Assembly: GCA_015478645.1 (NCBI GenBank)
Contig: JADMIL010000001.1
Location: 124,001-188,000 of the forward strand
DNA length: 64,000 nt
Origin: Candidatus Binataceae bacterium
GTDB lineage: Bacteria; Desulfobacterota; Binatia; Binatales; Binataceae
Direction of reading: 5' to 3'
The translations under genes were made by a program, and so were the position numbers. The notes beneath the pieces were generated by a model. The model was not told where the DNA came from and ran no database searches. It saw only the letters and a list, made by a program, of their open reading frames with translations. Positions 4,264 to 37,663 of this stretch are shown piece by piece (the stretch's first letter is position 1; every line of letters starts with the position of its first letter).

Positions 4264-4319
4264 GGTGATGGGGTTCACCGGTTAACCGCTCTCTATTTCA
4301 GAGGGCTGATGACCCCTAC
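4264..4319 (+). ncRNA. Fluoride riboswitch (crcB motif) aptamer upstream of ilvD
   Basis: GGTGATGGGGTTCACCGGTTAACCGCTCTCTATTTCAGAGGGCTGATGACCCCTAC; pseudoknot GGGGT/ACCCC. Confidence 0.92.
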
Positions 4320-4350
4320 GGGAAAACCCGTAGGGGTTTATGTTTTTTTT
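4313..4350 (+). terminator. Intrinsic terminator forming the riboswitch expression platform
   Basis: CCCCTACGGG-AAAA-CCCGTAGGGG followed by a T-rich tract; overlaps the 3' strand of the pseudoknot. Confidence 0.9.
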
Positions 4351-4389
4351 ACGGAAGGGCAAGCGACCTTCAACTGAGGATGGGACATC

Positions 4390-6063
4390 ATGAAAGAGAA
4401 TCTAAGAAGCAAGACCATCACGCAGGGCGTGCAGCGCTCGCCTAACCGGTCGATGCTGCGTGCGGTCGGCTTTACCGACCGCGACTTCGACAAGCCGATC
4501 GTCGGTATTGCGAATTCCTACAGCACGATCACGCCTTGCAACATGAGTCTGAACGTCCTCGCGCAGCAGGCCGAAGCAGCAGCGAGGAGCGGAGGCGCGA
4601 TGCCGCAGGTGTTCGGCACGATCACGGTCAGCGACGGAATCGCGATGGGGACCGAGGGGATGAAGTATTCCCTGGTCTCGCGCGAGGTGATCGCGGACTC
4701 GATCGAGACCGTGTGCGGCGCTCAGGCGATGGATGGGATCGTCGCGATCGGTGGATGCGACAAGAACATGCCTGGCGCGATGATCGCGATTGCGCGGATG
4801 AATATCCCGGCGATCTTCGTTTACGGCGGCACGATCAAGCCGGGCCATTACAACGGCCGCGACCTGACGATCGTCAGCGCCTTCGAGGCAGTCGGCGAGT
4901 TCAGCGCCCACAAGATCGGCGAGCAGGAGTTGCTGGAGATCGAACGCCACGCCTGCCCCGGCGCAGGGTCGTGCGGCGGGATGTACACTGCCAACACGAT
5001 GTCGTCGGCGATCGAGGCGATGGGCATGAGCCCGCCCTACTCTTCCACCATGGCGGCGGTTGAACCGGAGAAGGCCGAGAGTGCGGCGCTGTCGGGGCAG
5101 ACGCTGGTCGAGGTGATTAGCCGCCAGCTTCTGCCCCGCCAGATCATGACGAGGCAGGCGTTCGAGAACGCAATCGCTGTGGTCATGGCGGTTGGCGGAT
5201 CGACCAACGCCGTGCTCCATCTGCTCGCGATGGCGCACGCGGCACAGGTGCCGCTCACTATCGATGACTTCGAGACCATTCGTCAGCGGGTGCCGGTATT
5301 GTGCGACCTGAAGCCGTCGGGACCTTACGCCACAACGGATCTGCATCGGGCCGGTGGTATTCCGCAAATCATGAAGATGCTTTTGAACCACGGACTTCTG
5401 CACGGGGACGCAATCACGATTACGGGCAAGACCGTCGCCGAGAATCTGGCCGCGGCTCCCGATGCCCCCGCCAAGGACCAGGCTGTCATCCATCAATGGG
5501 AGGCGCCGGTATATCCCCAGGGGCATCTCGCGATCTTGAAAGGCAACCTCGCGACCGAGGGCGGCGTTGCGAAGGTCACGGGAATCAAGAGCCATCACAT
5601 CACGGGACCCGCTCGAGTATTCGAGTGCGAAGAGGATTGCCTGAAGGCGATTCTCGACGCGAAGATCAAGTCTGGCGACGTAATAGTAATTCGTTATGAG
5701 GGGCCGAAAGGCGGCCCTGGGATGCGCGAGATGCTATCGCCCACATCGGCGCTGATCGGCGCTGGCCTTGGCGGCTCGGTGGGCTTGATCACCGACGGCC
5801 GCTTTTCAGGTGGCACCTATGGACTGGTGGTCGGACACGTCGCACCGGAAGCGCAGGTGGGCGGATTGATCGCGCTGGTGAACGAGGGCGATTCGATCAC
5901 AATCGATGCGGATGGACGTAAACTGACGCTGAACGTACCGGAAGCCGAAATCGCGCGCCGCCGTGCGGCCTGGAAGGCGCCGGCGCCGCGATATACCCGT
6001 GGCGTACTGGCTAAGTACGCCGCTCAAGTGTCGTCCAGCAGCATCGGGGCGGTAACGGACTAA
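4390..6063 (+). CDS. ilvD: Dihydroxy-acid dehydratase
   Basis: [54 protein letters not shown] motifs; full length 557 aa. Confidence 0.96.
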
Positions 6064-6117
6064 CTTCGCCTGCCCCGCCCGTCTCGCCAATACGCGTTGG
6101 CATAGAAGTGCGGTCCG

Positions 6118-7650
6118 ATGACCTTCCAGAGCATACTTTATCCGGATCGATCTCACGGTGTTTCAGACGCACAATGTGCCGCGCCCGAGTGTTTTGTCGA
6201 TCTCAATCTCGATCAGGTCGTCGCCGCCATCACGGTTGGTAAAGATGAATATGACCTGACGCCCTTCTTCCATACCTCACTGCGTGACGTTGACGCTATT
6301 ACGTACCGGCACGAGGTTATGCGGGCTCTCGAAGATGTCACCCTGGCGGATAGCATCAAGTCATTTGCCGAAAAGATGCATGCGATGCGGCAGCATCTTG
6401 CGCAATCCGGGGCGCTCTCGGGCCGCCAGAAAGAACGCTGGTTCCTTGATGCGATGAACGTTTATTGCGACGCCGTGACGCGCCTGGTGCATGACCTGTC
6501 GCATACCGAGCTTACCTCGCGCGGCCTGATAGCCTTCCGGGAATATATGACCCGGTATGCCGCATCAGAGTCCTTCGCCTCCCTTTTGAAGGAAACGAAA
6601 GAGATCCATGCCGAGATCTGCTCGATAGATTACTGCGTGCTCATCGACAGTCCCCACGTCCAGGTCCGCAAGAGCAAAGGTGAGTCCGACTACAGCGCGG
6701 ACGTCCAGGCGACGTTCGAGAGGTTCAGGCGGGGAGCGGTAACAGGATTCCATTTCAGGTTCCGCGATTCACCCGAGATGGACCACATCGAGGAAAAGGT
6801 CCATGAACTGGTTGCGCGGCTGTATCCGGATATATTTGCCAGATTGCACACCTACTGCTCGGAACACAAAGACTATCCTGACGAGGCGATTTTCACTTTC
6901 GACCGGGAGATACAATTCTATATCGCCTACCTGGACCATATAGCCAAGTTCAAGAAGGCCGGACTGGACTTCTGCTATCCGCGAATCACCACGGCATGCA
7001 AAGAGGTTTACAGCTATCGAGGCTTCGATCTCGCGCTGGCCAACAAGCTAATAGGTGAATGTGCTATACCTGTCCGCAATGATTTTCACCTCAAGGGTCG
7101 AGAACGGATCATCGTCGTCTCGGGTCCGAATCAGGGCGGCAAGACGACTTTTGCCCGGACCTTCGGACAGTTGCATTATCTCGCGAGCCTGGGCTGTCCG
7201 GTGCCCGGAAGTAAAGCGCAACTCTTTCTCTTCGACGAGCTTTTCACTCATTTCGAGCGGGAAGAAAGTATAAGCAATCTCCGCGGCAAGCTACATGATG
7301 ATCTCGTCCGAGTTCATCAGATTCTGAACCACGCGACGCCCAACAGTATCATCATCATGAATGAAATCTTCACGTCCACCACGCTGCAGGATGCGATCGC
7401 CCTCAGCAAGCGCATCGCAACCAAGCTCCTGGAACTGGATCTATTGTGTGTCTGGGTGACCTTCGTCGACGAATTGGCGTCTTTGGGCGAGCAGACCGTC
7501 AGCATGGTCAGCACGATGGTACCCGGCAGTCCAGCACTGCGGACGTACGAGGTTGTCAGGCGGCCCGCGGATGGCCTTTCCTACGCAACGTCGATCGCGG
7601 AGAAGTACCGGCTGACCTATAAGATGATTATGGAGCGCATCGGCTGGTGA
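6118..7650 (+). CDS. MutS-like ATPase (paralog A)
   Basis: Walker A GPNQGGKTTFART, Walker B-like SIIIMNEIFTSTT; 510 aa, MutS domain V-like C-terminus. Confidence 0.85.
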   Translation: MTFQSILYPDRSHGVSDAQCAAPECFVDLNLDQVVAAITVGKDEYDLTPFFHTSLRDVDAITYRHEVMRALEDVTLADSIKSFAEKMHAMRQHLAQSGALSGRQKERWFLDAMNVYCDAVTRLVHDLSHTELTSRGLIAFREYMTRYAASESFASLLKETKEIHAEICSIDYCVLIDSPHVQVRKSKGESDYSADVQATFERFRRGAVTGFHFRFRDSPEMDHIEEKVHELVARLYPDIFARLHTYCSEHKDYPDEAIFTFDREIQFYIAYLDHIAKFKKAGLDFCYPRITTACKEVYSYRGFDLALANKLIGECAIPVRNDFHLKGRERIIVVSGPNQGGKTTFARTFGQLHYLASLGCPVPGSKAQLFLFDELFTHFEREESISNLRGKLHDDLVRVHQILNHATPNSIIIMNEIFTSTTLQDAIALSKRIATKLLELDLLCVWVTFVDELASLGEQTVSMVSTMVPGSPALRTYEVVRRPADGLSYATSIAEKYRLTYKMIMERIGW

Positions 7651-9143
7651 AGGCGCATCTCCTATTCGAGGATCAGGATTTTCTTCTCGAGCGGTCTCTG
7701 CCGTGGAACGAGGGTGCGCTCGTCAAGGATTTGTCGCTGGATACCCTGTTCACCGCGATGGCCAGAGGCGACGCATTCGTCTTTGAAGTGAGCAAGAGGG
7801 TCGTCTTGCTGGGTTCCGACAACGGCCTTGAAACGATCCGGTACAGGCAGAGGATTTTGCAAGACTGCCTCAACCAGCCGGAGGTCGTCCGCGAGCTTTA
7901 CTCTGTCTCGGTCGAGGCGATGGTTGAGCAGAAGAGACACTATCTTGGGGTCTTCGCCCGTTCCCCCGACTCGGTTCTTCGCTACTCGATCGAACTGATG
8001 GAAGGATTCCTCGGCATGCTTAAGGCGTTGAGGAGGAGCGCCGATTTGCACGCTGACAAGTTTGTTTCGGAGGGATGGACCGCGTTTTATGCGATGCTGA
8101 GACGCGAACTTAGCGACGATTTCTTTGCCCGCGTCGATTATCATCTGGACCGATTGAAATTCCGGGACGGGGTTTTGCTCAGCGCCCACCTCGGCCAAGG
8201 CAACAAGGGCGACCGGTATGTATTGCGTGAACCGCCTGACCGAAAGGGGACCTTCCTGACTCGGCTTTTCACGCGGCAGCCGCCCGCGTACAGCTTCACG
8301 CTGCATCCCCGCGATGAAAGTGGTTTCAGCGCTCTCGCAGACCTGCGAAACAGGGGGATCGGCCTCGTTGCCGATACGATTGCGCAATCGACGGGACATA
8401 TACGGAGTTTTTTCGACATGCTCCGAACGGAATTGGCCTTTTACGTCGGGTGCGTTAACCTGCACCAGGTTCTCCAGCGAAGGGGAGTGTCCATGGCCCT
8501 TCCCTCGCCCGTGGCCGCGCAGGAGCGCCGACTCTCGTTTCAAGGATTACGCGATGCCTGTCTGGCATTGAGCACGGACGAGTATGTGGTCGGCAATGAT
8601 GGCGACGCTGACGGGCAAGACCTCGTGATCGTCACAGGCGCCAACCAAGGTGGCAAATCGACTTTCCTGCGCAGCGTAGGATTAGCCCAGTTGATGATGC
8701 AGTGCGGGATGTTCGTGAGCGCTGGATCGCTATGCTCCAGCGTTCGCGCCGGCCTCTTCACGCACTACAAGCGCGAAGAAGATACTGCCATGAATAGTGG
8801 CAAGCTCGACGAAGAGCTCAGCCGGATGAGCGACATTATCGACCATATAACCCCGAATTCCATGATCCTGTTCAATGAATCCTTCGCGGCGACCAACGAG
8901 CGCGAGGGTTCGGAGATCGCGAAGCAGATTGTATCCGCACTGTTGGACAAGCGGGTCAAGATTGTATTCGTGACGCACCTGCATGAGTTGGCGCGCGGTT
9001 TCCATGAAAACAATAGTGGTGACGTTCTGTTCCTGCGGGCCGAAAGGCAGGCCGACGGTGTCCGAACATACAAGTTGCTCGAAGGAGAGCCGTTAAAAAC
9101 AAGCTTCGGAGAGGATCTGTACAATAGTATTTTCGGCGGCTGA
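7647..9143 (+). CDS. MutS-like ATPase (paralog B)
   Basis: Walker [14 protein letters not shown], Walker B-like [27 protein letters not shown]; start overlaps stop of paralog A. Confidence 0.87.
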
Positions 9144-9778: not shown

Positions 9779-11092
9779 TCATCTCCGCCCGACGGGATCG
9801 GTCCGGACTTGGACCGAGTGCAGAGCACTCGACGCAACCCGCTCGAGGGTCCGGTTCTCGAGATCACTGAAACCGAGAAACACCAACCCCAAGATCACGA
9901 CGAGTGCCGATGCAACAGCAAGACGGCGAACCAGTGCGGTCGCGCGCGTCTGTTGATAAACGATTGGCAAGTTGACAAGCGCAATGGTCATCGAGGTCAG
10001 AACCACAGCGACTCCGGCGGTCTCGGGTGTGATTTTGCCTGTCGTGGCGAGCGCGGCGGCGGTAGCCGTGGTGCTTGCACTGCTCACGAGACCGCCAACC
10101 ACGCTTAGCCCGAGAAACCCGAAGCTGCCGAAGCATCTTTGCGCTAGGGTGCCGAGAGCCGTCAGAGTGACGAAGAGCGCGGCGAACTTAAGCACGTAAG
10201 GAACTGAGACGGGAGAGGACAATTGGAGTTGAGGTATCAAAGCCTCTGCGTGGTCTCGCCGCAGCCATACCAGAGCCAGTGACCCGGCGGTCATGACAGC
10301 GAGTGGGAGTAGCGCGGTGGCGAGGGAAGCTGGTGCAAAGATAGCGAGAATGAGGAGGTTGCGCAGGAACATCGCGAGACTGGTGAGCATAAGGACAGCC
10401 ACTGCAAGCGACACAGAGTTGGCTACTCCTCTAAATACTTTCGACAGTTCGGCCGCGGCGGCGGTGCTGTTCACGAGACCTCCCAAGAAGGCGGCGTAGT
10501 AGGTGCCGCACGGACCATACATTCGGAGCATCACGTAATTCGTGAAGCCGAGGCCCGCGATGACGACGACGATGACCCACGCCTGTCGGGGATTCAGAAG
10601 TTGCCATGGATCCACGAACACGTTTGGTAGAAGCGGATAGATGACGAAAGTAAGAAGGCCTAACAGCACCGCACTGCGAATCTCCTCCGGCTGCAGAGTC
10701 CCTGCGAAACGTGCAAGCCCGGCCTTCCAGGCAAGCAGCATGGTCATGAGGATGGCCGATGTGATGCCGGTAAAGTAGTGGCCTTGCCCTATCAGCGCGC
10801 CGACCAAAAACATCACCAATAGGGCTGCCGAGGTGGTCATCTCGAGCGAAGCATCCTTGATGAGGCTTTGAACCTTCAACAATGCCACCAGCAGGAATGT
10901 GCCGGCCAGAGCGGCGCCAAGAAGCTGGGGGGCCGCGAGGGAAGTCAACGTGCCGAACAGCGCGATAATCGCAAAGGTGCGGACACCGACCTCCTTTTGT
11001 GCCCATTCGCGTTCGAGGCCGACCAAAAGCCCAGCCCCCAACGCTAACGCGATTTGGGATGCGACCTCGGTGTAGGGAAATGACGGAAACAT
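9779..11092 (-). CDS. MgtC/SapB-type membrane protein with DUF4010-like C-terminal region
   Basis: QIALALGAGLLVGLEREWAQKEVGVRTFAIIALFGTLTSL N-terminus; polytopic. Confidence 0.8.
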   Translation of the reverse strand: MFPSFPYTEVASQIALALGAGLLVGLEREWAQKEVGVRTFAIIALFGTLTSLAAPQLLGAALAGTFLLVALLKVQSLIKDASLEMTTSAALLVMFLVGALIGQGHYFTGITSAILMTMLLAWKAGLARFAGTLQPEEIRSAVLLGLLTFVIYPLLPNVFVDPWQLLNPRQAWVIVVVIAGLGFTNYVMLRMYGPCGTYYAAFLGGLVNSTAAAAELSKVFRGVANSVSLAVAVLMLTSLAMFLRNLLILAIFAPASLATALLPLAVMTAGSLALVWLRRDHAEALIPQLQLSSPVSVPYVLKFAALFVTLTALGTLAQRCFGSFGFLGLSVVGGLVSSASTTATAAALATTGKITPETAGVAVVLTSMTIALVNLPIVYQQTRATALVRRLAVASALVVILGLVFLGFSDLENRTLERVASSALHSVQVRTDPVGRR

Positions 11093-11232: not shown

Positions 11233-11529
11233 TCACTTGCCCGCGTGATCACGGCGATCGTTCGTATGATCGTGGCGCTTCTGCTGGGACTCGCTCAGAA
11301 CGGCGCGCTTGAGGCTCAGCCACCACTGTGCGGTTGCCTCGGGCTTTTCCTCGCGTACCCGGTGAAGCATCTCAATTACCCAGTCGATATTTGAGAGCGT
11401 CGCCTGGCGCTCGCGCGCGGGTGACGTCGGCCGTATGCGCGCGAGCATGCGCTGCAGGAGCGTCGGGCGCCGAATCGCCGGACCAGCGACCGCCTTTTCC
11501 GTCCGTCTGATTCCGACTGGCCGCTTCAT
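11233..11529 (-). CDS. Hypothetical protein, 98 aa, overlapping the 3' end of the dynamin-like gene
   Basis: Same strand, 4-nt overlap with the upstream GTPase gene. Confidence 0.45.
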   Translation of the reverse strand: MKRPVGIRRTEKAVAGPAIRRPTLLQRMLARIRPTSPARERQATLSNIDWVIEMLHRVREEKPEATAQWWLSLKRAVLSESQQKRHDHTNDRRDHAGK

Positions 11530-13337: not shown

Positions 13338-13370
13338 AAAAAACTCCCACGGCTCTATCTGCCGTAGGAG
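13338..13370 (-). terminator. Riboswitch terminator upstream of the dynamin-like gene
   Basis: On minus strand CTCCTACGGC-AGATAGA-GCCGTGGGAG-TTTTTT. Confidence 0.88.
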
Positions 13371-13418
13371 TCATTGGCCGTTTACCGGAAAACGGCAATT
13401 CGGGCGAACTCCACCGCC
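13361..13418 (-). ncRNA. Fluoride riboswitch aptamer upstream of the dynamin-like gene
   Basis: Minus strand GGCGGTGGAGTTCGCCCGAATTGCCGTTTTCCGGTAAACGGCCAATGACTCCTACGGC. Confidence 0.9.
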
Positions 13419-13559
13419 TGATCGGATTCTAGTCGCTATCGGTCCCAGCGCAAGAGATCCGCCGGACTCGAGAATCCGGCATCGGCGCCCGCGTCGGTTT
13501 TCTGACTCGACTATCCCGGCCGGCGCATGGTTCAGATGAACGCGGGGCAAAACTCGCTC

Positions 13560-14093
13560 TCATCCGTTCACAGACTTCCGCGCTGCTCGAGCGATTGCGC
13601 CGCTGATGTACTCGAAGGTCTCGTCGAGTTCCATCCAGTGAGAGACGCTCAGCCGATTGCCTTCTTCAAGGTCCTTGTAGTGGTTGAAGAAATGGCTGAT
13701 CTGTTCATGCAGAATGGCCGGGAGATCAGCCAAGGTGTGAACATCAATATAGTATGGGTTCAATCTGTCCACGGGGACGGCGATGATTTTCTGATCACCG
13801 TCTTCCATCGCAAGCCCGCCAATCGGGCGGCAGCGAACGACCGCGAGCGGGATGATCGGAACTTGTGAGACAACCAGCACGTCGCAGGGATCCGCGTCGC
13901 GACAGAGCGTGTGCGGAATAAATCCATAATTGGCCGGGTAGGACATGGGGGTATGCAGGAACCGATCAACGAAAAGGCAACCCGAGGCCGGATCGAACTC
14001 GTACTTGATCGGCGCACCGCCTTGCGAAATTTCAATTATCACGTTGACCTCAGATGGGGGGCTGTCGCCGCTTGAAATTTTGCTGATATCCAT
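13560..14093 (-). CDS. ppa: Inorganic pyrophosphatase, family I
   Basis: VIIEI...PIKYEFD...DRFLHTPMSYPANYGFIPHT...DADPCDVLV...HFFNHYKDLE. Confidence 0.96.
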   Translation of the reverse strand: MDISKISSGDSPPSEVNVIIEISQGGAPIKYEFDPASGCLFVDRFLHTPMSYPANYGFIPHTLCRDADPCDVLVVSQVPIIPLAVVRCRPIGGLAMEDGDQKIIAVPVDRLNPYYIDVHTLADLPAILHEQISHFFNHYKDLEEGNRLSVSHWMELDETFEYISGAIARAARKSVNG

Positions 14094-14228: not shown

Positions 14229-14263
14229 TAAAAAACTCCCACGGCTTCTGTCTGCCGTAGGAG
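14229..14263 (-). terminator. Riboswitch terminator upstream of ppa
   Basis: Minus strand CTCCTACGGC-AGACAGAA-GCCGTGGGAG-TTTTTT. Confidence 0.88.
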
Positions 14264-14310
14264 TCATTGGCCGCTCTGCGAGAGCGGCAGTTTTGGTGGA
14301 CTCCACCGCC
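14254..14310 (-). ncRNA. Fluoride riboswitch aptamer upstream of ppa
   Basis: Minus strand GGCGGTGGAGTCCACCAAAACTGCCGCTCTCGCAGAGCGGCCAATGACTCCTACGGC. Confidence 0.92.
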
Positions 14311-14357
14311 TTTGAGATCAACTTAGCAGAGCGGTCGGTCCACTGGCCAGCTTTCAA

Positions 14358-14693
14358 TCATTCCAAAAGATCAGGAAAGCGGCGGAGACGAAAGGCGGCG
14401 GCGAAAGCGTAAATCGCGTCCGGCATGGCAACCGACATCAGCAGCGGATCGGCGAACGCAACCCGCCAGACTTTGGTAGCGGCGGAGGCATACCAGGGGT
14501 AGCAAAAAACAACCCGTCGCTCATCTGGCAAAATTAAGGCGCTCAGGGCCTTGGCCACTGGGCACTCGGCTTCGGCTCTGTGGGTTGCGCCGCGCGGAAG
14601 CGCCGCGAGCACGGGCTCGCCAACTTCGCGTCTTACGGCATTGACCAGTTGGAGTGCGTTCGCGACAAGTTCTGACGCGCATCTTACGCGCAT
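14358..14693 (-). CDS. Small uncharacterised protein (111 aa)
   Basis: MRVRCASELVANALQLVNAVRREVGEPVLAALPRGATHRAEAECPVAKALSALILPDERRVVFCYPWYASAATKVWRVAFADP...; starts directly after a riboswitch-like leader. Confidence 0.65.
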   Translation of the reverse strand: MRVRCASELVANALQLVNAVRREVGEPVLAALPRGATHRAEAECPVAKALSALILPDERRVVFCYPWYASAATKVWRVAFADPLLMSVAMPDAIYAFAAAFRLRRFPDLLE

Positions 14694-14696: not shown

Positions 14697-14760
14697 GGAC
14701 TCCGATGCAGGAGTCATCGGCATGCCGCGGGGGCGACAGCGTAACAGCGGACTCCACCGC
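14697..14760 (-). ncRNA. Divergent fluoride riboswitch with putative translational (SD-sequestering) platform
   Basis: Minus strand GCGGTGGAGTCCGCTGTTACGCTGTCGCCCCCGCGGCATGCCGATGACTCCTGCATCGGAGTCCGCC-ATG; GGAGTC/GACTCC pseudoknot; GACTCC can alternatively pair with GGAGTC beside the start codon. Confidence 0.75.
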
Positions 14761-14812
14761 GTCCCGCGCGATGGTCGCGCGCGGGCGAAATTGCCAGTAC
14801 CAGCGCAGCAGC

Positions 14813-16141
<1,329 letters not shown>

Positions 16142-18027: not shown

Positions 18028-18050
18028 CGTGAAAATCCTGTGATGCCAGC

Positions 18051-18114
18051 CATCGCAGGAGTCATTGGCCGCTACGAAAACGGCAGGTTGTCAGAAGGCG
18101 GACTCCACCACCCC
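18051..18114 (-). ncRNA. Fluoride riboswitch upstream of the ATPase-eno gene pair
   Basis: Minus strand GTGGTGGAGTCCGCCTTCTGACAACCTGCCGTTTTCGTAGCGGCCAATGACTCCTGC; followed by terminator-like TCCTGCGATG-GCTGG-CATCACAGGA-TTTT. Confidence 0.85.
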
Positions 18115-18245
18115 AGCTACATAAGATACGCAATACAACTTCCCTAGATCAAGACGAATTGAAAAGGTCGATATTGGTTCGGCGGGCCAGCGCCGAACCA
18201 CGCTGCTGTTGCTTCCTAGTAAGATTATGCTATTGTCCGCACGCT

Positions 18246-19178: not shown

Positions 19179-20354
<1,176 letters not shown>

Positions 20355-23601: not shown

Positions 23602-23613
23602 CCGGAGAATCAA

Positions 23614-25739: not shown

Positions 25740-25742
25740 GCG

Positions 25743-27332
25743 ATGCCAGCCGAACGGAAGCAAGTGCTCGATGAGGTTGCGGCTCGTTGGAACGGCAGAG
25801 TTCAATTGAGCCCGGAAGACGGTTCGGAATCGGCTTATCGGCTGGAGTGTGAACCTGCGGAGCTATCGGAGGTTTGCAATTGGTTGTTCTCCGATCTGCA
25901 TTACAGTTTCGGCGGTCTGGTAGTCGAGCAACTAACGCGGTGGGAACTGCGGTACGTATTCTATGGCGGGCCGGGAGCGGGCTGGTTGCATGTGCTGACT
26001 CATCTAGCTCCGTCGGATTATCGGGTGCCCAGCGTCAGCAGGCTCGTGCATGCGGCTGACTGGCACGAACGCGAGGTCGAGGACCTGTTCGGGCTGGTCT
26101 TCGAGGGGCATCCGCGCCTCGGCGATTTCGTACTTCACGACGACGCCTGGCATGAGGGCGTCGCTCCGATGCGTAAGAGCTTCGATGGGCGCCAACCGGT
26201 GACGCATCGTGCGCCCGACCAGAACTGGAAGCCGCGCCAGATCGTCGAGGAGGCGGGAGCGTTCTTGATGCCGATCGGACCCATCTATGCCACCGCAACC
26301 GGGCCGGTGCACTTTCAGCTTGAAACCGTGGGCGAAGATGTAATCCGCGTGCAGCCGCGCCTCTTCTATGCATACCGCGGGCTGGAAAAGATCGCCGAGG
26401 GGCGCCGGGCTGAGGACGTTCTACTGATAGCGGAGCGTATCAGCGCAACATCAGCATTCGCTCATTCACTCGCGGTCTGTCAGGCCGTGGAGCGTATCTG
26501 CCACATGGAGGTGCCTCCGAGAGCGCGCGCGCTAAGAATATTCGTTGCGGAGTTCGAACGCCTTCGGCATCACGTCGCGGCGATCGAGGGAATCTGTGAA
26601 TCGACCGGCCTTGCGGTTGCAGCCGCCCAGGCCTCGATTCTCGAAGAGGACCTGCTGCGACTTTCCTGTGTGCTGACGGGGCATCGTTATCTCTTCGGCC
26701 TCGGAACCTTCGGTGGCTTGACGATCAACCTTGACGATTCGGCCTGCAACCGAGCCGCAGCACAGGTGCGAGAAGTGGCCGAAAAGCTCTCGCGCCTTGA
26801 GCGGATGTTGAGCATATCCAGCAGTTTTCTAGACCGACTGGAGGAGGTCGGCCACGTTTCCGCAGGCGAGGCCGGCGACTTCGGGCTGGTCGGACCGATC
26901 GCCCGCGCCTCAGGTGTCTCGCGGGATATGAGGAAGGCCCAGCCATATTCCGGCTATGACCAGATCGAGTTTGAGGTTCCCCACGAATCGGAAGGAGACG
27001 GATACGCACGGTTGCGTATGTTCTTTCGAGAGGCGGCGCAATCAGTGCGGATCATCTCGACGGTTGGCCAAGCGGTTCCTGGGGGGCAGGTTCGCGCGCC
27101 GGAAGTCAGCTTCAGGCCGGGTGCCGCGCTGGGCTGGGTCGAAGCACCGCGCGGGGCCGCGTTGCATTGGATTCGCCTCGGCGAGGACGGCGTGGTGGAT
27201 CGCTACCGAATCATCACGCCGTCATTCGCGAACTGGCATGGCTTCAGGCTCGCGGCCGAAAACTTTGCGTTTCAGGATTTTCCGATAATCCTCGCGACGT
27301 TCGCGCTCTCAGTTCACGAGAACGATCGCTAG
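25743..27332 (+). CDS. HyfG/HycE-like fused NuoC-NuoD subunit lacking NiFe-binding cysteines
   Basis: N-terminal NuoC-like region (HEREVEDLFGLVFEGHPRL) and NuoD-like region; L1 position reads ERISATSAFAHS (no CxxC); C-terminus DFPIILATFALSVHENDR (no DPCxxC). Confidence 0.88.
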   Translation: MPAERKQVLDEVAARWNGRVQLSPEDGSESAYRLECEPAELSEVCNWLFSDLHYSFGGLVVEQLTRWELRYVFYGGPGAGWLHVLTHLAPSDYRVPSVSRLVHAADWHEREVEDLFGLVFEGHPRLGDFVLHDDAWHEGVAPMRKSFDGRQPVTHRAPDQNWKPRQIVEEAGAFLMPIGPIYATATGPVHFQLETVGEDVIRVQPRLFYAYRGLEKIAEGRRAEDVLLIAERISATSAFAHSLAVCQAVERICHMEVPPRARALRIFVAEFERLRHHVAAIEGICESTGLAVAAAQASILEEDLLRLSCVLTGHRYLFGLGTFGGLTINLDDSACNRAAAQVREVAEKLSRLERMLSISSSFLDRLEEVGHVSAGEAGDFGLVGPIARASGVSRDMRKAQPYSGYDQIEFEVPHESEGDGYARLRMFFREAAQSVRIISTVGQAVPGGQVRAPEVSFRPGAALGWVEAPRGAALHWIRLGEDGVVDRYRIITPSFANWHGFRLAAENFAFQDFPIILATFALSVHENDR

Positions 27333-27350
27333 TAGGTACGGCTAACCATC

Positions 27351-28121
27351 ATGAGCCAATGGGTAATCAAGGGTCTCAGAACCGGCGTTAAGAGCACCCG
27401 CTACCCGCGCGCCGAGGAAACTGCGGCTGGAATTTCGCCGGGCCTGCCGACTGCCGCGACACTCCCCTTGGAAGTGGCCCAGTCACTCGTGGCGCGTTGT
27501 CCGGCCGACGCTCTTGAACTGGCTCCGGCCGGCGTGGACGTGAACCTGCGCCGATGTATTCACTGCTTCCGCTGCGTGCGTGGCACGAACAGTCCGCTCG
27601 GATGGGAACACAGCTACGAATGGGCCACCGCAGTTTCGGGTGGCAATGATCAAAAGCGGCAGTTCGGTCCGGCGTTCGATCGATCGGTTCACATCCTCGT
27701 GGTCGATACAGGCGACTGCGGGGCGTGCCTGAACGAGGTCCGACAGCTCAACAATCCCTACTACAACATGCATCGCCTCGGCTTCTTTCTCACTCCAACG
27801 CCACGTCATGCCGATGTGTTGCTGGTAGTCGGAGCGCTGACCGACCACATGCGAGTGCCGCTGCGCAAGGCCTACGACGCGATGCCCAGCCCGAAACGGG
27901 TCGTAGCCGTTGGGGCCTGCGCGCTATCGGGAGGAATCTTTGGCCGCAGCTTTATGTGCGCAGGCGGAGTGGCCGAGCTGCTCCCGGTCGATGTCGAGGT
28001 GCCGGGCGATCCGCCACCGCCACTCGCGATTCTGCACGGACTGTTGGTTGCGGTTGGCCGGAAACCCCCGGCCCGTTTGCATCGCGCAGTGAGCGACTCG
28101 GTGGGGAACGCGTCGGGATGA
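27351..28121 (+). CDS. HyfI/HycG/NuoB-like subunit with N-terminal ferredoxin-like (HyfH-type) extension
   Basis: QWVIKGLRTGVKSTRYPR, RCPADAL...RCIHCFRCVRG, then TGDCGACLNEVRQLNNPYYNMHRLG...AVGACALSGGIFG...VEVPGDPPPP. Confidence 0.87.
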   Translation: MSQWVIKGLRTGVKSTRYPRAEETAAGISPGLPTAATLPLEVAQSLVARCPADALELAPAGVDVNLRRCIHCFRCVRGTNSPLGWEHSYEWATAVSGGNDQKRQFGPAFDRSVHILVVDTGDCGACLNEVRQLNNPYYNMHRLGFFLTPTPRHADVLLVVGALTDHMRVPLRKAYDAMPSPKRVVAVGACALSGGIFGRSFMCAGGVAELLPVDVEVPGDPPPPLAILHGLLVAVGRKPPARLHRAVSDSVGNASG

Positions 28122-30268
28122 CCTCCATGGGCCTGCTACTGGTCATTATCGTGGCGCTGTGCGGCGCCGGCGTGGTTTTGCCGCTGGCCATTGAAGAACG
28201 GCGAACGCCAGCGATCGTGGGCTGGTTCGGAGCGTGCGCGGCGGGCGTCTTGCTCTGCTTCAGCGGAGCCTCACTGTTTGCGGGCGCGCCGTTTCACGCG
28301 ACGCTGTGGACCATTCCATCGCTGGCGACGCTCACGCTGTCACTCGACCGGCTCTCTGCGCTGTTTCTTTTTATTTCAGGCCTGGTCCTGCTTCCCGGTT
28401 CGATTTTCGCGGCTGGCAATCTCCATAGGTACATGGGCCGTTACAGTCTTAGGGCCTTTAGCGTTCTATATTTCGCGCTCTATGCGACGCTGGTGCTGAT
28501 TCCCCTGTCGGCCGACGCGGTCTCCTTTCTGATGTTGTGGGAATCGATGTCGATCCTGATCTACCTGCTGGTGAACTACGAAGACGAAATGGAAGAACAC
28601 CTGCGGGCGGGATACTTGATGCTGGCGGTTGGCGAGGCCGGCACACTCCTCATCGCGCTGGCGTTCATAGTACTCGCCAATAATGGCTCGCTTGAATTCG
28701 TCGCGATGGAGGCTGGGGGAGGTGCGCTGGGCGAATACGCGCGATGGGCTGTCTTCCTGCTCGCGTTCTTCGGCTTCGGAGTCAAGGCCGGTCTCATCCC
28801 GGTTAATTTCTGGCTCCCGCAGGCGTACGCCGCGGCGCCGGATGCTTTCGTCCCGGTGCTGGCTGGAGCAACCTTGAACCTCGGTCTTTACGGAATCGTC
28901 AGAGTGAACGGTGACCTGCTGCCGGTTGCGGCGATCGGCCCCGGCCTCGTCGCGCTCATCGTCGGCAGCGTTACCGCGCTGCTCGGCATTCTCTACGCGA
29001 CGACGCAGAGCGATCTCAAGACCATGCTCGCGCACAGTTCGATCGAGAATGCCGGCATTATCACAGCGGCGCTCGGCGCGGGGTTTATCTTCGTGGCCTT
29101 GGCGCATCCGTCGCTTGCGGCGATCGCGTTTGCGGCGGCCTTCTACCACATGGTGAACCATTCGATTTACAAGGCCCTGTTGTTCTTCGCGACCGGCGCG
29201 GTTGATTCGAATACCGGAACCCGAAACATCGACCGGCTGGGAGGCTTGATAAAGGCGATGCCTCTCACCGCGTTGTTCTTTCTGGTTGGCGCACTGTCGA
29301 TCGCGGCGCTGCCGCCGTTCAACGGATTCGTTAGTGAATGGCTCACGTTGCAGGCGATGCTGCAAAGCGCGGGACTTGCTTCGACTGGCGTGAAAATCGT
29401 CTTTGCGCTTTGCGGCGCGATCCTCGCCCTGACGGCGGCGCTTGCGGTGACCTGCTTCGTTAAGGCGTTCGCGATGAGTTTCCTCGGGATGCCACGGTCT
29501 GATTCGGCGGCGCAGGCCCGGTCGGCGCGAGCCTCGGCGACTATTCCGATGGCATTCCTCGCCGTGCTCTGCTTCATCCTGGGAGTGACTCCGACCTACG
29601 TCATTCCGGTGCTCGACGGAGCTATCGCGCCGATCGCGGAGCAGGCGCGCGCCGCCGACGCCCTGGTGCCACCCTTCTTTGCTGGCAACGTCCATCACGG
29701 CGAGCTGCCCGCATCCTTCGTCGCGGATTTTCACGCGCTTGGCGCGCAAGTCGGGCAGAGCGTAATGCCGGGACGTGGACTCATTGTGATGCATCGCGGC
29801 GGCGCGGCCAATCCGGTGGTGTTCGCGATGTCCACCACGTACATGGCCGTGGTCCTGGCGCTGATGCTGCTCGCTACCTACGTCGTGTTTCGATTGATTG
29901 TCGCGCGAAGCCGCGCCGTCGAACGGCGCGCGGTCTGGGATGGTGGAATCCGACGCTTGCTGCCGGAGATGACCTACACCGGTACCGGATTCTCGAACCC
30001 GGTGCGCGTCATCTTCGAAGCGGTATTCAGGCCCACAACCGTGGAAGACACCCGGGAGACGGTCGGCAAGCATTTCCGGGCCGCGATTCGGCGCACGCAC
30101 GGCGAAAACCATGTGCTGGACCGCTTGGTGCTCAATCCGATCGCGGACGCCGCGCTATGGGTATCAAACGGTTTTGCCCGGATGCATCATGGCTTCCTCA
30201 ATGCCTACGTTCTCTACGGGCTCATCGCGCTGATTGTGGCGCTTCTGATCGCGAGGTTCTCCTCATGA
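28118..30268 (+). CDS. HyfB/NuoL-like antiporter-type subunit
   Basis: ATG overlaps previous TGA (ATGA); LLMLWESMSILIYLLVNYE, GFGVKAGLIPVNFWLPQAYAAAP, KTMLAHSSIENAGII. Confidence 0.9.
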   Translation: MTSMGLLLVIIVALCGAGVVLPLAIEERRTPAIVGWFGACAAGVLLCFSGASLFAGAPFHATLWTIPSLATLTLSLDRLSALFLFISGLVLLPGSIFAAGNLHRYMGRYSLRAFSVLYFALYATLVLIPLSADAVSFLMLWESMSILIYLLVNYEDEMEEHLRAGYLMLAVGEAGTLLIALAFIVLANNGSLEFVAMEAGGGALGEYARWAVFLLAFFGFGVKAGLIPVNFWLPQAYAAAPDAFVPVLAGATLNLGLYGIVRVNGDLLPVAAIGPGLVALIVGSVTALLGILYATTQSDLKTMLAHSSIENAGIITAALGAGFIFVALAHPSLAAIAFAAAFYHMVNHSIYKALLFFATGAVDSNTGTRNIDRLGGLIKAMPLTALFFLVGALSIAALPPFNGFVSEWLTLQAMLQSAGLASTGVKIVFALCGAILALTAALAVTCFVKAFAMSFLGMPRSDSAAQARSARASATIPMAFLAVLCFILGVTPTYVIPVLDGAIAPIAEQARAADALVPPFFAGNVHHGELPASFVADFHALGAQVGQSVMPGRGLIVMHRGGAANPVVFAMSTTYMAVVLALMLLATYVVFRLIVARSRAVERRAVWDGGIRRLLPEMTYTGTGFSNPVRVIFEAVFRPTTVEDTRETVGKHFRAAIRRTHGENHVLDRLVLNPIADAALWVSNGFARMHHGFLNAYVLYGLIALIVALLIARFSS

Positions 30269-30309
30269 AGCTTGACCGGCGGTGCGGCTAGACTTAGCTT
30301 ATGGGTACA

Positions 30310-30380
30310 GGTGGTGGAGTCCACCAGGAACCGCCATCCGGCCAATGACTCCTGCAGCGGGTAGAGACCCGCGGCGGGAG
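30310..30380 (+). ncRNA. Fluoride riboswitch aptamer with long hairpin at the head of the uncharacterised operon
   Basis: GGTGGTGGAGTCCACCAGGAACCGCCATCCGGCCAATGACTCCTGCAGCGGG...; pseudoknot GGAGTC/GACTCC; then CTCCTGC-A-GCGGGT-AGAG-ACCCGC-GGCGGGAG hairpin. Confidence 0.87.
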
Positions 30381-31289: not shown

Positions 31290-31985
31290 ATGCGAATCTG
31301 CATCATTTCAGACCTGCACGCGAACCTCGAAGCTCTTTCCGCCCTGCCACGCGACTATGATGAGTTGTGGGTATTGGGTGACCTGGTGAACTATGGTCCT
31401 GATCCGGCCGAAACGATCGACTTTGTGCGATCTCACGCGTCAACTGTCATCCGCGGAAACCACGACAACGCGGTGGGATTTGGAACGAATTGTGGGTGCT
31501 CGCCTCGATTCCGCACTATGGCCGAAGCGACGCGCCAATACACGACGTCGGTCCTGAGTGCTAGAGACAAACAGTTTCTTAGGGAGCTACCGACATGCGC
31601 CTGCCGCCAGGTCGACGGGCGGATATTCTTTCTCTGCCACGCGACTCCATCGGATCTGCTCTATGAGTACCGCGCGCCCGACTCGCCGCTGTGGGCGCGG
31701 GAAGAGGAGTCCAGTTCGGGAGCGAATGTCATCCTGGCGGGACACACACATCTGCCGTTCGCGCGCGTCTTTGGCGAACGTATCGTCGCTAATCCAGGAA
31801 GCCTTGGACAATCGAAAGCAGGAGACCCGCGCGCCCGCTACGCCGTCTGGCAGGATGACCATATTGAGCTAAAGGCCTACGAATATCCCGTCGACAAGAC
31901 GGTCGAGAAAATCTTGGCGCTTCCGTTACCCGAGGAAGTAAAGCACGACCTCGTCTGCGTGCTTCGTACGGGGACAGCGCCGTGA
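31290..31985 (+). CDS. Metallophosphoesterase family protein
   Basis: MRICIISDLHANLEAL...VLGDLVNYGPDP...VIRGNHDNAV...ILAGHTHLPF...VANPGSLGQ. Confidence 0.92.
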   Translation: MRICIISDLHANLEALSALPRDYDELWVLGDLVNYGPDPAETIDFVRSHASTVIRGNHDNAVGFGTNCGCSPRFRTMAEATRQYTTSVLSARDKQFLRELPTCACRQVDGRIFFLCHATPSDLLYEYRAPDSPLWAREEESSSGANVILAGHTHLPFARVFGERIVANPGSLGQSKAGDPRARYAVWQDDHIELKAYEYPVDKTVEKILALPLPEEVKHDLVCVLRTGTAP

Positions 31986-32977
31986 GTACCAATAGTCATC
32001 GAAACACCGCTCCGGAGCCGGCTGCGATCACGGCTGACGCCGTAAAACTAGGCGATCTGAGACATCACCTCCGATCGCTGCACGATGGAGACGGCGCGGT
32101 GATTGAGGCAATCGGCATCGGCGCTCCAGCGATTCCGGTCCTGCGGGAACTCCTGTTTGAGCGAGATCCCAGCGGGATTTTCGAGCCGCGGATGCGTGCC
32201 GCTCAGGCGCTGGCCGCGCTCAGAGCCACGAGCGAATTGCAGGAGTTTGTCCGCGAATGGAAATCGGCTTCGGACCCAGTCGAGCGGTTTGGAGACGAAG
32301 CGGTGCTGGGAGCCGTCGCCAGATTTTTGGGCGCCACGATGGAAGAAGACGTCTATGACATCCTGATGGCGATCGGCCGAAAGTATCCGGTGCCGGGCGT
32401 TATCGAAGCCTTAGGGCGATATGGCCGTTCGGAATCGGTTTCAATGATGCTCAGAGCCCTTGCCGATGACATCAGCCGGACCGCGGCGGAACAGGCATTA
32501 AGGATCCTCGGCGAGGCGGGAGTTCCCGCGCTCATCGAGGCCGCCATGCGGCCGGTCGCGAATTTTTGGGGCAGAGAAATTCCATCCAGTGTGCTTAGGC
32601 GGCGCAGCGCGTTAATGCTGCTGCTAGAATTTGGTGTTACGCGCGATACTTGGGACCGCATCCGCAGGTTGGTATCAGACTCAGACGACGAAATTTCGGT
32701 CCGTGCATGCGCAATTGGATTGACGGCGGGCATTCGTGCAGACCAGCGCGACTGCGCGTGGCGGATGTTGGAGTTACTGCGCGGGGTCGCGTGGCCGCTT
32801 CATCAGGAAATCGAAAACTGCCTGATAGACAATTTCGCAATCGCTCGGGAGTTCGTCGATCAGGCTATCAAAGGACCGACGGACGACATCGCGGATGACT
32901 TCGCGCGCGCCCGATTCAAGCGATCACTCCGTCGGATCGCGGCAAGGGCGTTAACCAGACAGGAGCCCGGGAGTTGA
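31982..32977 (+). CDS. HEAT-repeat-like helical protein
   Basis: Repeated amphipathic helices (AAQALAALRATSELQEFV, GVIEALGRYGRSESVSMMLRAL); overlaps upstream stop. Confidence 0.6.
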   Translation: MSTNSHRNTAPEPAAITADAVKLGDLRHHLRSLHDGDGAVIEAIGIGAPAIPVLRELLFERDPSGIFEPRMRAAQALAALRATSELQEFVREWKSASDPVERFGDEAVLGAVARFLGATMEEDVYDILMAIGRKYPVPGVIEALGRYGRSESVSMMLRALADDISRTAAEQALRILGEAGVPALIEAAMRPVANFWGREIPSSVLRRRSALMLLLEFGVTRDTWDRIRRLVSDSDDEISVRACAIGLTAGIRADQRDCAWRMLELLRGVAWPLHQEIENCLIDNFAIAREFVDQAIKGPTDDIADDFARARFKRSLRRIAARALTRQEPGS

Positions 32978-35475: not shown

Positions 35476-35525
35476 CCCGCTGCCGGTGAGGACAACCCAC
35501 AAGGGATGAGCGAGGAAATTGAAGA

Positions 35526-36734
35526 ATGGATGGAAGACCGGCGCCGGCTGTTCGGAAAATCGAAACCGCCGACTCGCGTGCGACGTGGTTTAACCGCAAC
35601 GTCGCGGGTATGTGCCTGGCGAGTCTGCTCTCCGATCTGGGACATGAGATGGCAACCTCGATCCTGCCGCTGTTCCTGACCGCGATTGGAGCATCGCCTT
35701 CGGCGCTGGGGATTATTGAGGGCGCGTCGGATGGAGCCGCGACGTTCGCCAAACTGATTGGCGGCAGGATCGCAGACCGCAAGGGCTTGCGCCAAAAGGT
35801 TGCAAGTCTCGGATACCTGGTCACCGGTCTCGCGACAGGATCATTCGCGGCGGCGATGACTTGGTTTGAACTACTGATCGCGCGGACTGTGGGATGGTTT
35901 GGCAGGGGGACACGCGGGCCGTCGCGCGACAATCTTCTGGTTGATTCGGTACCCCACGCGAAGGTCGGCGCGGCGCTGGGGCTTCACCGAACCGCCGACA
36001 CTCTGGGAGCGATCTTGGGGCCGCTGACCGCGATGTTCCTTCTCCATCGAATCGGATTCCGCAACATCTTCCTGCTGAGTCTCGTGCCTGGCGTGTTCGC
36101 CGCCGCGGCGTTCTACTTCCTTGTGCGCGAACCCGATGGCGCAAACTTGGCACAAGCGCCGGAGTTTCGAGGCTGGCACGCGGCGCTGCCCTCCTCCTTC
36201 CGGACGTTTCTCGCGACGATTCTACTGTTTGGAATCGGAGACTTCGCGCACAGCATGCTGGTGCTTCGGGCTGCACAACTGCTCGGATCGACACCCAAGG
36301 CAATGAGCATCGCGATCGGTTTATACGTCATTCACAACACGGCGCATGCGGCTTTGTCTTATCCGATAGGAGTTACAGGCGACCGCATCGAGCGTCGGCG
36401 CCTGCTCGCGGTTGCTTATGTGATCGCGGCGGTCGCCGCGGCTGGCTTCGCCATCGGACCACACAGCGTAGGTGCGCTGGTGGTGCTCTTCATTCTCGAA
36501 GGCGCCGTAATGGCTGCTCAGGAAACGCTCGATTCGGCCGTGGCGACAGATCTTCTGCCAGCCGACTCGCGCGGCGCGGGATTCGGCGTAATGAATGCCA
36601 CAAGCGGCGTCGGCGACTTCGTGTCGAGCATTGTCGTCGGATTTCTTTGGACTGGCATATCCGGCCATGCCGCATTTGCGTATAGCGCAACCTTGAGCTT
36701 GCTGGCCGCGGCATTGATGACCTGGGGGATCTGA
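35526..36734 (+). CDS. Major facilitator superfamily transporter
   Basis: 12-TM-like; SLLSDLGHEMATSILPLFL..., GRIADRKGLRQKVASLGYL. Confidence 0.85.
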   Translation: MDGRPAPAVRKIETADSRATWFNRNVAGMCLASLLSDLGHEMATSILPLFLTAIGASPSALGIIEGASDGAATFAKLIGGRIADRKGLRQKVASLGYLVTGLATGSFAAAMTWFELLIARTVGWFGRGTRGPSRDNLLVDSVPHAKVGAALGLHRTADTLGAILGPLTAMFLLHRIGFRNIFLLSLVPGVFAAAAFYFLVREPDGANLAQAPEFRGWHAALPSSFRTFLATILLFGIGDFAHSMLVLRAAQLLGSTPKAMSIAIGLYVIHNTAHAALSYPIGVTGDRIERRRLLAVAYVIAAVAAAGFAIGPHSVGALVVLFILEGAVMAAQETLDSAVATDLLPADSRGAGFGVMNATSGVGDFVSSIVVGFLWTGISGHAAFAYSATLSLLAAALMTWGI

Positions 36735-36752
36735 GAGAGAGGCCTGGAACTG

Positions 36753-37247
36753 GTGATAAGGAGAATGAATTCCTTTTGCTGGAACTGCTTCCAAATGATC
36801 GATAGCGACGACACGCTGTGCCCCTATTGCGCGCGGCAGCAACACCCGGTACCGGGCGATCTTCGCGAGAAGCTGATTCGAGCGCTTAAGCATCCAATAG
36901 GAGAGACACGAAGACGGGCGTCATTCGTACTTGGAGAGAAGCGAATGAGCGAAGCCGCGACCAACCTTATCGACCTCGTCGAGCACGATCCCGACCTCTA
37001 TGTGGCCGCTGAAGCAGTTACGGCGTTGGAAAAAATCGGGACTCCGGACGCGCTGTATGGAATTGAGCGTGCGGCTTCGCACGAATCATTCGTCGTCCGG
37101 GAACGTGCCGTCGAAGCGCTCGTGGCGGCCGGCGGTGAGTGGGCGGATGCAGCGAGCGAAATAGCAGAAAACGACCCCAGTCCGTCGGTCAGAGAAGCCG
37201 CGCAAAGCAACCCTGCGAAAAAGGACCCCTTGGCTCGCCATCTGTGA
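36753..37247 (+). CDS. Zinc-ribbon plus HEAT-repeat protein
   Basis: SFCWNCFQMIDSDDTLCPYCARQQHP then helical repeats LIDLVEHDPDLYVAAEAVTALEKIGTPDAL. Confidence 0.65.
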   Translation: MIRRMNSFCWNCFQMIDSDDTLCPYCARQQHPVPGDLREKLIRALKHPIGETRRRASFVLGEKRMSEAATNLIDLVEHDPDLYVAAEAVTALEKIGTPDALYGIERAASHESFVVRERAVEALVAAGGEWADAASEIAENDPSPSVREAAQSNPAKKDPLARHL

Positions 37248-37663
37248 ACTATTCGCACACACTACGGCTGTCTATCGTGATGCGCGCAGTTGAGGACGCG
37301 GTAATCGAGATAGAGCGCGCGCTCGATCCAGCGGCGCAAGCTCCCCGGCGCGTGATGACCGAGTATCAGAACGACCTCCCCGACTCGGCAAGATGTGCGA
37401 TGCGGGCGAAGCTCGGGGAGATTCGTGCAGAAATCCAAGATGCGAAGGATTGCTATGATTTGTACGCCGACACTGTTTCTAATCGTCGGCGTCTCTCGAC
37501 CAAGTTGTCGATTCTCGCGATTGATTTGACCGACTGCAGACCAGCGTATATGCGCGGCTACGGGGAGGTGCCGGATGAAGAGCGTCAGCCGCTTGACGAG
37601 CGAATGTCACGACTGGAGGCGATGGTTAATGCTCTAAACAGAATGCTTACATCGCACGAATGA
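37244..37663 (+). CDS. Uncharacterised small helical protein, translationally coupled (GTGA overlap)
   Basis: GTG start overlaps upstream TGA; RAVEDAVIEIERALDPAAQAP...ERMSRLEAMVNALNRMLTSHE. Confidence 0.55.
   Translation: MNYSHTLRLSIVMRAVEDAVIEIERALDPAAQAPRRVMTEYQNDLPDSARCAMRAKLGEIRAEIQDAKDCYDLYADTVSNRRRLSTKLSILAIDLTDCRPAYMRGYGEVPDEERQPLDERMSRLEAMVNALNRMLTSHE

Follow-up and report, generated by a model that had tools for sequence, protein, structure and literature searches.

Why should one bacterial locus hold so many fluoride riboswitches, and can it move as a unit? This question was raised by a stretch of 64,000 nucleotides (the window) in the genome of a Candidatus Binataceae bacterium, for which a preliminary description had proposed nine crcB-motif aptamers on a mobile element. 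Coordinates are positions in the window, and the numbering of the contig (C61) is used for parts to the left of it. The analysis makes it very probable that the locus is an integrative mobilizable element of approximately 43.8 kb at tRNA-Arg(CCG), and that its cargo forms a single regulon for the response to fluoride, governed by nine separate fluoride riboswitches.

Nine Fluoride Aptamers in One Island

A search with the Rfam model RF01734 matched eight aptamers in the window (Table 1), not merely one or two. Five of them (rs1, rs2, rs3, rs8, and rs9) scored above the gathering threshold of 34 bits. RF01734 had no other match (E ≤ 0.001) anywhere in the 3.06-Mb genome. The ninth aptamer, rs4 (14769-14701, minus strand), was missed by RF01734. 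A local model (R2) was built from 37 aptamers of the window and its relatives, with rs4 left out of the training. R2 scored rs4 with 19.0 bits (E = 2.4e-4), and the next-best sequence in the 64 kb reached 11.1 bits; the R2 scores of the other eight aptamers are not independent evidence, because the model had been trained on them. Orthologues of the gene behind rs4, which encodes a protein of 111 amino acids, were present in four other genomes (G018, G023, G028, and G062). In all four an aptamer occupies the equivalent place (47.3, 41.6, 40.2, and 27.1 bits), and the alignment of the aptamers at this position retains GGTGGAGTCC and GCC[AG]ATGACTCCT. A strong aptamer also precedes the orthologue of the gene behind rs7 at seven loci of the family. 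Taken together, the sequence comparisons confirmed nine fluoride aptamers in the island, eight by RF01734 and the ninth by the local model and orthology, and the positions proposed earlier were right within about 10 nt.

The structure that RNAalifold itself suggested for the aptamers was poor, and the published P1/P3 layout was used instead. P1, P3, and the pseudoknot were 98.5% paired over the 37 aptamers, compared to 40-55% with the partner slid. At six pairs, three of which belong to the pseudoknot, both partners had changed, and P1, P3, and the pseudoknot are thus backed by covariation of the aligned sequences.

All nine aptamers sit in 5′-leaders, as expected from their description as lying just upstream of genes or operons, and each is followed by a putative expression platform that would exclude the ligand-bound fold, imperfectly so in rs8. 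For rs1, rs2, rs3, rs6, and rs7 a hairpin begins with the 3′-strand of the pseudoknot and closes in six to eight U, and the hairpin of rs5 ends in four U. The 3′-pseudoknot strand of rs4 is able to pair with the Shine-Dalgarno sequence GGAG before the ATG, and therefore control is probably translational. In rs9, which has no U tract, the partner of the pseudoknot strand is GGGAG, and a second hairpin encloses the GGAG at which ribosomes would bind; this second hairpin shows matching changes in orthologues, and the conserved start of the downstream gene is the GTG at 30441. Therefore, rs9 probably acts at translation as well. All nine platforms appear to be of the kind in which the ligand turns expression on.

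A Candidate Mobilizable Element at tRNA-Arg(CCG)

The mobility of the island had only been asserted before, and attachment repeats, an integrase, a relaxase, and a coupling protein were now found. The tRNA-Arg(CCG) gene lies left of the window (C61:118249-118323). The 29-base stretch at its 3′-end, AGTCCGGGTTCGATTCCCGGCCGGGGCAC, has one further exact copy in 246 kb, at 38027-38055 of the window, 364 bp past the last cargo gene, the end of which coincides with the end of the region described earlier (37663). The integrase gene follows the tRNA gene, and then come the genes for the TrwC relaxase and the TrwB coupling protein. The cargo of about 27 genes spans 4255-37663; its G+C content is mostly 0.57-0.62, compared to about 0.65 for the contig, and tetranucleotide usage deviates over the low-G+C stretch. 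The left flank with tRNA-Arg(CCG) was present in genomes of the same genus, which have at most one aptamer each, and no relative was found in which the left and right flanks are directly joined.

An integrase at a tRNA gene with direct repeats, combined with a relaxase and often a coupling protein, is what characterizes integrative mobilizable elements. No gene for a type IV secretion mating channel was recognised among the open reading frames of the element that were searched, which covered the small ones in part, and therefore this name was chosen for the predicted element at the 3′-end of tRNA-Arg(CCG).

Partial copies of the tRNA-Arg(CCG) end were also seen in three genomes of the same genus (G003:C12:23573-23619, G006:C86:2993-3037, and G002:C19:92485-92512), 3-14 kb from the intact gene. 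They suggest other elements at this site, and tRNA-Arg(CCG) may therefore be a hot spot.

Predicted Transcription Units and Duplicated Enzymes

The preliminary description had spoken of a coherent set of about 25 controlled genes. The coherence of the fluoride set was borne out; the number is closer to 27, and riboswitch control of all of them is deduced from the operon layout. The predicted rs1 unit comprises ilvD and the genes for two MutS-like ATPases (a and b), and the rs2 unit a dynamin, a 98-amino-acid protein, and possibly the MgtC-DUF4010 protein. The rs3 and rs4 units would consist of the family I pyrophosphatase gene and the gene for the 111-amino-acid protein, respectively. An AAA ATPase and probably enolase belong to rs5, the YkoP protein and metK to rs6, and the DUF190-CBS protein and crcB to rs7. 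The rs8 unit is a six-gene Hyf/Ehr-like complex, and the rs9 unit encodes a CxxC protein, a phosphoesterase, a HEAT-repeat protein, the second dynamin, an MFS transporter, another HEAT-repeat protein, and a 174-amino-acid protein. Genes of the island were also found under aptamers in sister islands and in other phyla, so that the linkage is conserved. The 111-amino-acid protein had no match in Pfam or NCBIfam, and its single-sequence AlphaFold model was too poor for use (predicted local distance difference test score, pLDDT, 41.5).

Enolase, metK, ilvD, and crcB each occur twice in the genome, once in the island. A search of the genome for family I pyrophosphatases returned only the island copy. 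A second enolase was present in only six of 41 genomes of the family and was in every case next to fluoride aptamers; one of the six (G022) owes it to a contig that is probably mis-binned. In a phylogenetic tree, all but one of the family's eight island-linked enolases group in one clade (support 100/96) and the housekeeping enolases of the family another (98/95). Both clades and an unplaced copy from G028 (L047) fall into one group (100/99), which is separate from the island enolases of other phyla. Therefore, the topology points to an origin of the island enolase by duplication within the family. The catalytic motifs of the island enolase and pyrophosphatase were intact on inspection by eye, and therefore more enzyme, rather than a fluoride-resistant enzyme, is the simpler reading.

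An Ehr-like Complex without Hydrogenase Ligands

The complex behind rs8 had been labelled formate-hydrogenlyase-like, and this label did not hold. In none of the 12 homologues compared, including those on plasmids, does the large subunit have any CxxC motif, and the nickel-binding sites read ERISATSAFAH and FALSVHENDR. Because all four NiFe cysteines are absent, a formate hydrogenlyase or group 4 NiFe hydrogenase was rejected. The subunits resemble NuoH/HyfC, HyfE, the antiporter-like HyfF, a NuoC/D-like large subunit, NuoB, and the antiporter HyfB. Ehr complexes are defined by Hyf/Nuo-like and antiporter-like subunits without NiFe ligands (PMC6349859), and by this definition the predicted complex is Ehr-like. 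In Lucifera butyrica (L132, 6666-6931, minus strand) three tandem fluoride aptamers precede one Hyf/Ehr-like gene cluster.

The MutS-like Pair and the Dynamins

The two MutS-like proteins matched MutS domain V only and have no mismatch-binding domains (Pfam); they scored 65-81 bits, compared to MutS cut-offs of 400-642. A classical MutS of mismatch repair was rejected, as the mismatch-recognition domain I is absent and the full MutS score is missed. A survey of named genomes gave 80 loci; they are the best-scoring of at least 578, and therefore the rate of linkage may not hold for all. The family spans many bacterial phyla and two archaea, and the partner gene was present in all 80 loci. An aptamer lies at most 500 nt upstream on the same strand in 42 of them, compared to about three expected from the hit density, and the stretch contains at least one aptamer in 65; an enolase gene was found in 30 stretches and a dynamin gene in 25. 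The earlier label "MutS-like pair" needs correction, as the pair is better read as a broad fluoride-linked ATPase family.

At 22 sites a dynamin homologue is the recognised gene that follows an aptamer most closely, and at 18 of these the aptamer lies outside this family. A scan of viral contigs for the MutS-like protein and a PADLOC search for the pair gave no match; in PADLOC the dynamins matched LeoA/LeoBC weakly. A literature search of partial coverage returned no publication combining fluoride, riboswitch, and dynamin.

Recurrence of Multi-aptamer Islands

Among 395 genomes of the phylum, 158 had any RF01734 match and six, including the present one, had at least five. The unusual character proposed for the set is thus supported by the phylum sample, but such islands recur in the family, in other phyla, and on plasmids, so that this density of aptamers is rare but recurrent. 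Family genome G028 has eleven matches, the present genome eight, and G023 and G062 six each, while the six of G022 come from the mis-binned copy. Outside the family, eight candidates were found in Xanthobacteraceae JOPF206 (L154), seven in Candidatus Formimonas warabiya (L121), and eight on an Alicyclobacillus plasmid (L083).

The contig C227 of G022, which was binned in another genus, matches window positions 13248-64000 and shares 99.86% identity with the present contig over 65 kb. It covers the host-like right flank, which is collinear at 75-78% with genomes of the same genus, and G022 has a separate copy of this flank of 69% identity, like its true relative G007. Very recent transfer into G022 was rejected on these grounds; the contig is most likely mis-binned, and therefore no claim of transfer is drawn from it. 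The mis-binning inflates the G022 counts for aptamers, second enolase, metK, and crcB.

A Model for the Fluoride Response

When fluoride rises in the cytoplasm, each aptamer would bind a magnesium-fluoride complex, and the pseudoknot would retain the ACYCC strand. The strand being held, the terminator hairpin would be blocked (clearly in rs1, rs2, rs3, rs6, and rs7, probably in rs5 and rs8), as would the hairpin masking the ribosome-binding site in rs4 and rs9, and all nine units would switch on together. CrcB, with the DUF190-CBS protein beside it, would export fluoride. The spare enolase, pyrophosphatase, S-adenosylmethionine synthetase, and dihydroxy-acid dehydratase, magnesium-dependent enzymes of ordinary sequence, would offset inhibited capacity by dose. 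The Ehr-like complex with its two antiporter-like subunits, together with MFS and MgtC-type proteins, might restore the proton and ion balance after entry of hydrogen fluoride, and the MutS-like ATPase pair and the dynamins might repair or remodel inhibited enzymes or membranes. The last role is the least certain step. It is tempting to speculate further, with a small chance of being right, that the pair is not a DNA repair system but a dedicated fluoride-stress machine of many bacterial phyla and some archaea, which is driven by ATP and, like reactivases, strips or reopens enzymes trapped by magnesium-fluoride-phosphate complexes, that the dynamins form a GTP-driven partner layer at the membrane, and that the island is the most complete mobile kit of this kind.

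Alternative Explanations

Several observations weigh against the model of a mobilizable fluoride regulon. Three of the eight Rfam matches (rs5, rs6, and rs7) stay under the gathering score, the pseudoknot of rs7 is weaker and pairs in a shifted register, and the U tract behind the strong hairpin of rs8 is broken. That enolase is read from rs5 across a gap of 128 nt, and the MgtC gene from rs2 across 140 nt, is assumed. The genome is a metagenome-assembled genome. No type IV secretion genes were recognised in the element, and therefore its transfer would need a helper. Homologues of the integrase, TrwC, and TrwB were not found in the stretches examined around sister islands, and therefore mobility is documented for this copy only. 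The latter result would also fit real aptamers in an ordinary chromosomal cluster that has lost its mobility, with relaxase, coupling protein, and integrase as remnants and with co-location explained by inheritance in the family. The enolase clade inside the family, sister to the housekeeping enolases, would agree with a set that arose in-house, and the identical copy assigned to another genus probably results from mis-binning. However, the reading frames of the integrase, the relaxase (902 amino acids), and the coupling protein (608 amino acids) are open and look full-length, the attachment copies are identical across 29 bp, and the island genes are patchy over the family, so that such a cluster is possible but doubtful. 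It is unlikely that certain aptamers among the nine respond to another ligand or have lost their function, leaving fewer fluoride-responsive units: rs7 (22 bits) and rs4 (R2, 19 bits) diverge in sequence, but each has counterparts with much higher scores at the same gene position in other genomes, and both retain plausible off-state hairpins.

A role of the MutS-like pair and the dynamins in DNA repair or phage defence, with the island as a merely shared location, would be in line with the domain V homology and the weak LeoA/LeoBC matches. Weinberg et al. (PMC2864571) listed mutS and formate hydrogen lyase genes behind crcB RNAs, as mentioned in the preliminary description, and proposed a link of mutS to DNA damage. 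This role is nevertheless improbable, in view of the missing mismatch-binding domains, the lack of a PADLOC match for the pair, and the aptamers directly upstream of the pair (42 of 80 loci, spread over many phyla) and of dynamins (18 loci). Least probable by far is that the neighbouring copper monooxygenase oxidises fluorinated hydrocarbons and that the island shields its host from the fluoride set free in this way. The pmoCAB-like operon lies 6.6 kb past the element, but it lies outside the attachment sites, its composition is nearly host-like, and no homologue was found in the stretches examined around sister islands; being outside the element, the enzyme was rejected as a fluoride source. 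The mobilizable element with one fluoride-response regulon is kept as the preferred explanation.

Features of the Element and Its Surroundings

Table 1. Predicted features of the element. Positions refer to the window unless C61 is given; all aptamer scores are for RF01734 unless R2 is named.
Feature	Position	Strand	Basis and remarks
Left attachment copy	C61:118293-118321 (window -5707 to -5679)		Next to integrase gene
Tyrosine integrase, 447 aa (amino acids)	C61:118290-119633	-	Abuts tRNA-Arg(CCG)
TrwC (MOBF) relaxase-helicase, 902 aa	1-924, continues left (window -1784 to 924; C61:122216-124924)	-	Pfam TrwC E = 2e-82, AAA_30, TraI_hel_assoc_N
TrwB/TraD-type coupling protein, 608 aa	928-2754	-	Pfam TrwB_AAD_bind E = 2e-90
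rs1 aptamer	4255-4325	+	52.4 bits; terminator with U8 on 3′ side; ilvD 65 nt away
Dihydroxy-acid dehydratase ilvD, second copy	4390-6063	+	TIGR00110 above cut-off; other copy on C73
MutS-like ATPase a, domain V only	6118-7650	+	Pfam MutS_V
MutS-like ATPase b	7647-9143	+	Pfam MutS_V; overlaps partner gene
MgtC-DUF4010 membrane protein	9779-11092	-	Pfam MgtC, DUF4010; possibly in rs2 operon
98-aa protein	11233-11529	-	Homologues in L059, L043; overlaps dynamin gene
Dynamin-like GTPase, 590 aa	11526-13298	-	Pfam Dynamin_N; homologues directly under aptamers elsewhere
rs2 aptamer	13358-13427	-	39.8 bits; terminator U6
Family I inorganic pyrophosphatase	13560-14093	-	Pfam
rs3 aptamer	14251-14319	-	36.0 bits; terminator U6
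111-aa conserved protein	14358-14693	-	Orthologues 57-59% identical in four genomes
rs4 aptamer (ninth)	14701-14769	-	R2 19.0 bits; orthologous aptamers; fold
Enolase, second copy	14813-16138	-	TIGR01060 633 bits; tree
AAA_16 ATPase, 586 aa	16267-18027	-	Pfam AAA_16; TIGR03903 65 bits, weakly TOMM kinase/cyclase part; first gene behind rs5
rs5 aptamer	18049-18121	-	30.2 bits, E = 1e-4; hairpin then UUUU
rs6 aptamer	18237-18306	+	32.0 bits, E = 3e-5; terminator U8
YkoP-domain protein	18361-19089	+	Pfam YkoP E = 2e-28
S-adenosylmethionine synthetase metK, second copy	19179-20354	+	TIGR01034
rs7 aptamer, sequence divergent	20498-20567	+	22.2 bits, E = 0.05; terminator U7
DUF190 and four CBS domains	20720-22000	+	Pfam
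CrcB/Fluc fluoride channel	22026-22400	+	Pfam CRCB 103 bits; another copy on C53
rs8 aptamer	22455-22526	+	47.3 bits; strong hairpin, imperfect U tract
Six-gene Ehr-like membrane complex	22651-30268	+	Pfam, NCBIfam, cysteine check over 12 homologues
rs9 aptamer	30301-30361	+	42.0 bits; no U tract; orthologues; fold
CxxC-type protein, 276 aa	30441-31271	+	Very weakly DUF6062-like; GTG start chosen from orthologues
Calcineurin-like metallophosphoesterase	31290-31985	+	Pfam
HEAT-repeat protein	31982-32977	+	Pfam
Dynamin-like GTPase, 833 aa	32974-35475	+	Pfam
MFS transporter	35526-36734	+	Pfam
HEAT-repeat protein	36753-37247	+	Pfam
174-aa protein, last cargo gene	37139-37663	+	Conserved in sister islands
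Right attachment site	38027-38055	+	Repeat search; exact 29-bp copy of tRNA-Arg(CCG) 3′-end

Just beyond the right attachment site lies an open reading frame with an FHA domain (38801-39178, plus strand). The copper membrane monooxygenase operon (44650-47910, minus strand) encodes proteins of the AmoC/PmoC, PmoA, and PmoB types, with genes for a GMC oxidoreductase and an alcohol dehydrogenase nearby; genes for such enzymes have been published for Binatota. Two inverted copies of a 122-nt sequence (93% identity) at 60065-60186 and 61550-61671 enclose 1.36 kb. Further copies of this repeat, about 87-123 bp long and 93-97% identical, occur at many places of the contig, and it is perhaps a dispersed element resembling miniature inverted-repeat transposable elements.

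Significance and Comparison with Known Systems

The island offers a near-complete parts list of bacterial fluoride defence, gathered in a single transferable unit whose ends are defined, and it makes testable what each class of genes behind fluoride riboswitches does. Two labels that have been current since 2010 are corrected: the hydrogenlyase-like genes here do not encode a hydrogenase, and the mutS genes do not encode classical mismatch repair. Dynamins, ilvD, metK, and the conserved 111-amino-acid protein extend the list of genes that immediately follow fluoride aptamers or share an operon with them. Kits of this type are of use in organofluorine degradation, where growth is limited by released fluoride.

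The P1, P3, and pseudoknot core of the known fluoride riboswitch (crcB motif, RF01734) recurs in all nine RNAs, as do the place ahead of genes and the overlap with terminator or ribosome-site hairpins; the difference is in number, as nine in 26 kb lead nine separate units here and most genomes have none to two. The complex behind rs8 has Hyf/Nuo-like and antiporter-like subunits and the lack of NiFe ligands in common with Ehr complexes, from which it differs in lying under a fluoride riboswitch. The island pair shares the ATPase domain V with MutS/MutS2 and KamC ATPases, but it is devoid of mismatch-binding domains and scores far under the MutS and KamC cut-offs.

That the whole set had not been described on a mobile element, as the preliminary description suggested, appears to hold for its size and number of units, but the principle has a precedent. 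The acquired island GI3 of Enterobacter cloacae FRM is riboswitch-controlled and raises fluoride resistance (PMC5533749). It likewise carries a fluoride riboswitch over crcB, an extra enolase, and a pyrophosphatase. The GI3 operon has one aptamer and six genes, among them those for a manganese-dependent pyrophosphatase (ppaC), UspA, and gpmA. In contrast, the present island has nine aptamers and about 27 genes, which include those for a family I pyrophosphatase, ilvD, metK, the Ehr-like complex, the MutS-like pair, and dynamins, and it belongs to a relaxase-bearing element.

Plasmid-borne fluoride clusters of Rhodococcus, Citrobacter, Klebsiella, Burkholderia cenocepacia, Caballeronia, Alicyclobacillus, and Rubrobacter are a second group of relatives. 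On a Rhodococcus qingshengii plasmid (L080, 13400-31515) the MutS pair, eno, two crcB genes, UspA, and MFS genes lie beside TniQ/TniB/TnsA-like transposition genes. No homologue of the dynamins, metK, ilvD, or the 111-amino-acid protein was found in the plasmid-cluster stretches examined, and the clusters differ further by UspA, PAP2, gpmA, and CLC-type channels. In common with the island they have the MutS pair, joined in varying sets by eno, crcB, MFS, and Hyf-like genes, with one to eight candidate aptamers per stretch. Taken together, riboswitch-controlled fluoride islands (GI3) and plasmid sets with the MutS pair were already known, and what appears to be new is the size, the number of units, a mobilizable element with defined ends, the assignment of the complex to the Ehr type, how strongly the MutS pair is linked to aptamers, and the additional genes.

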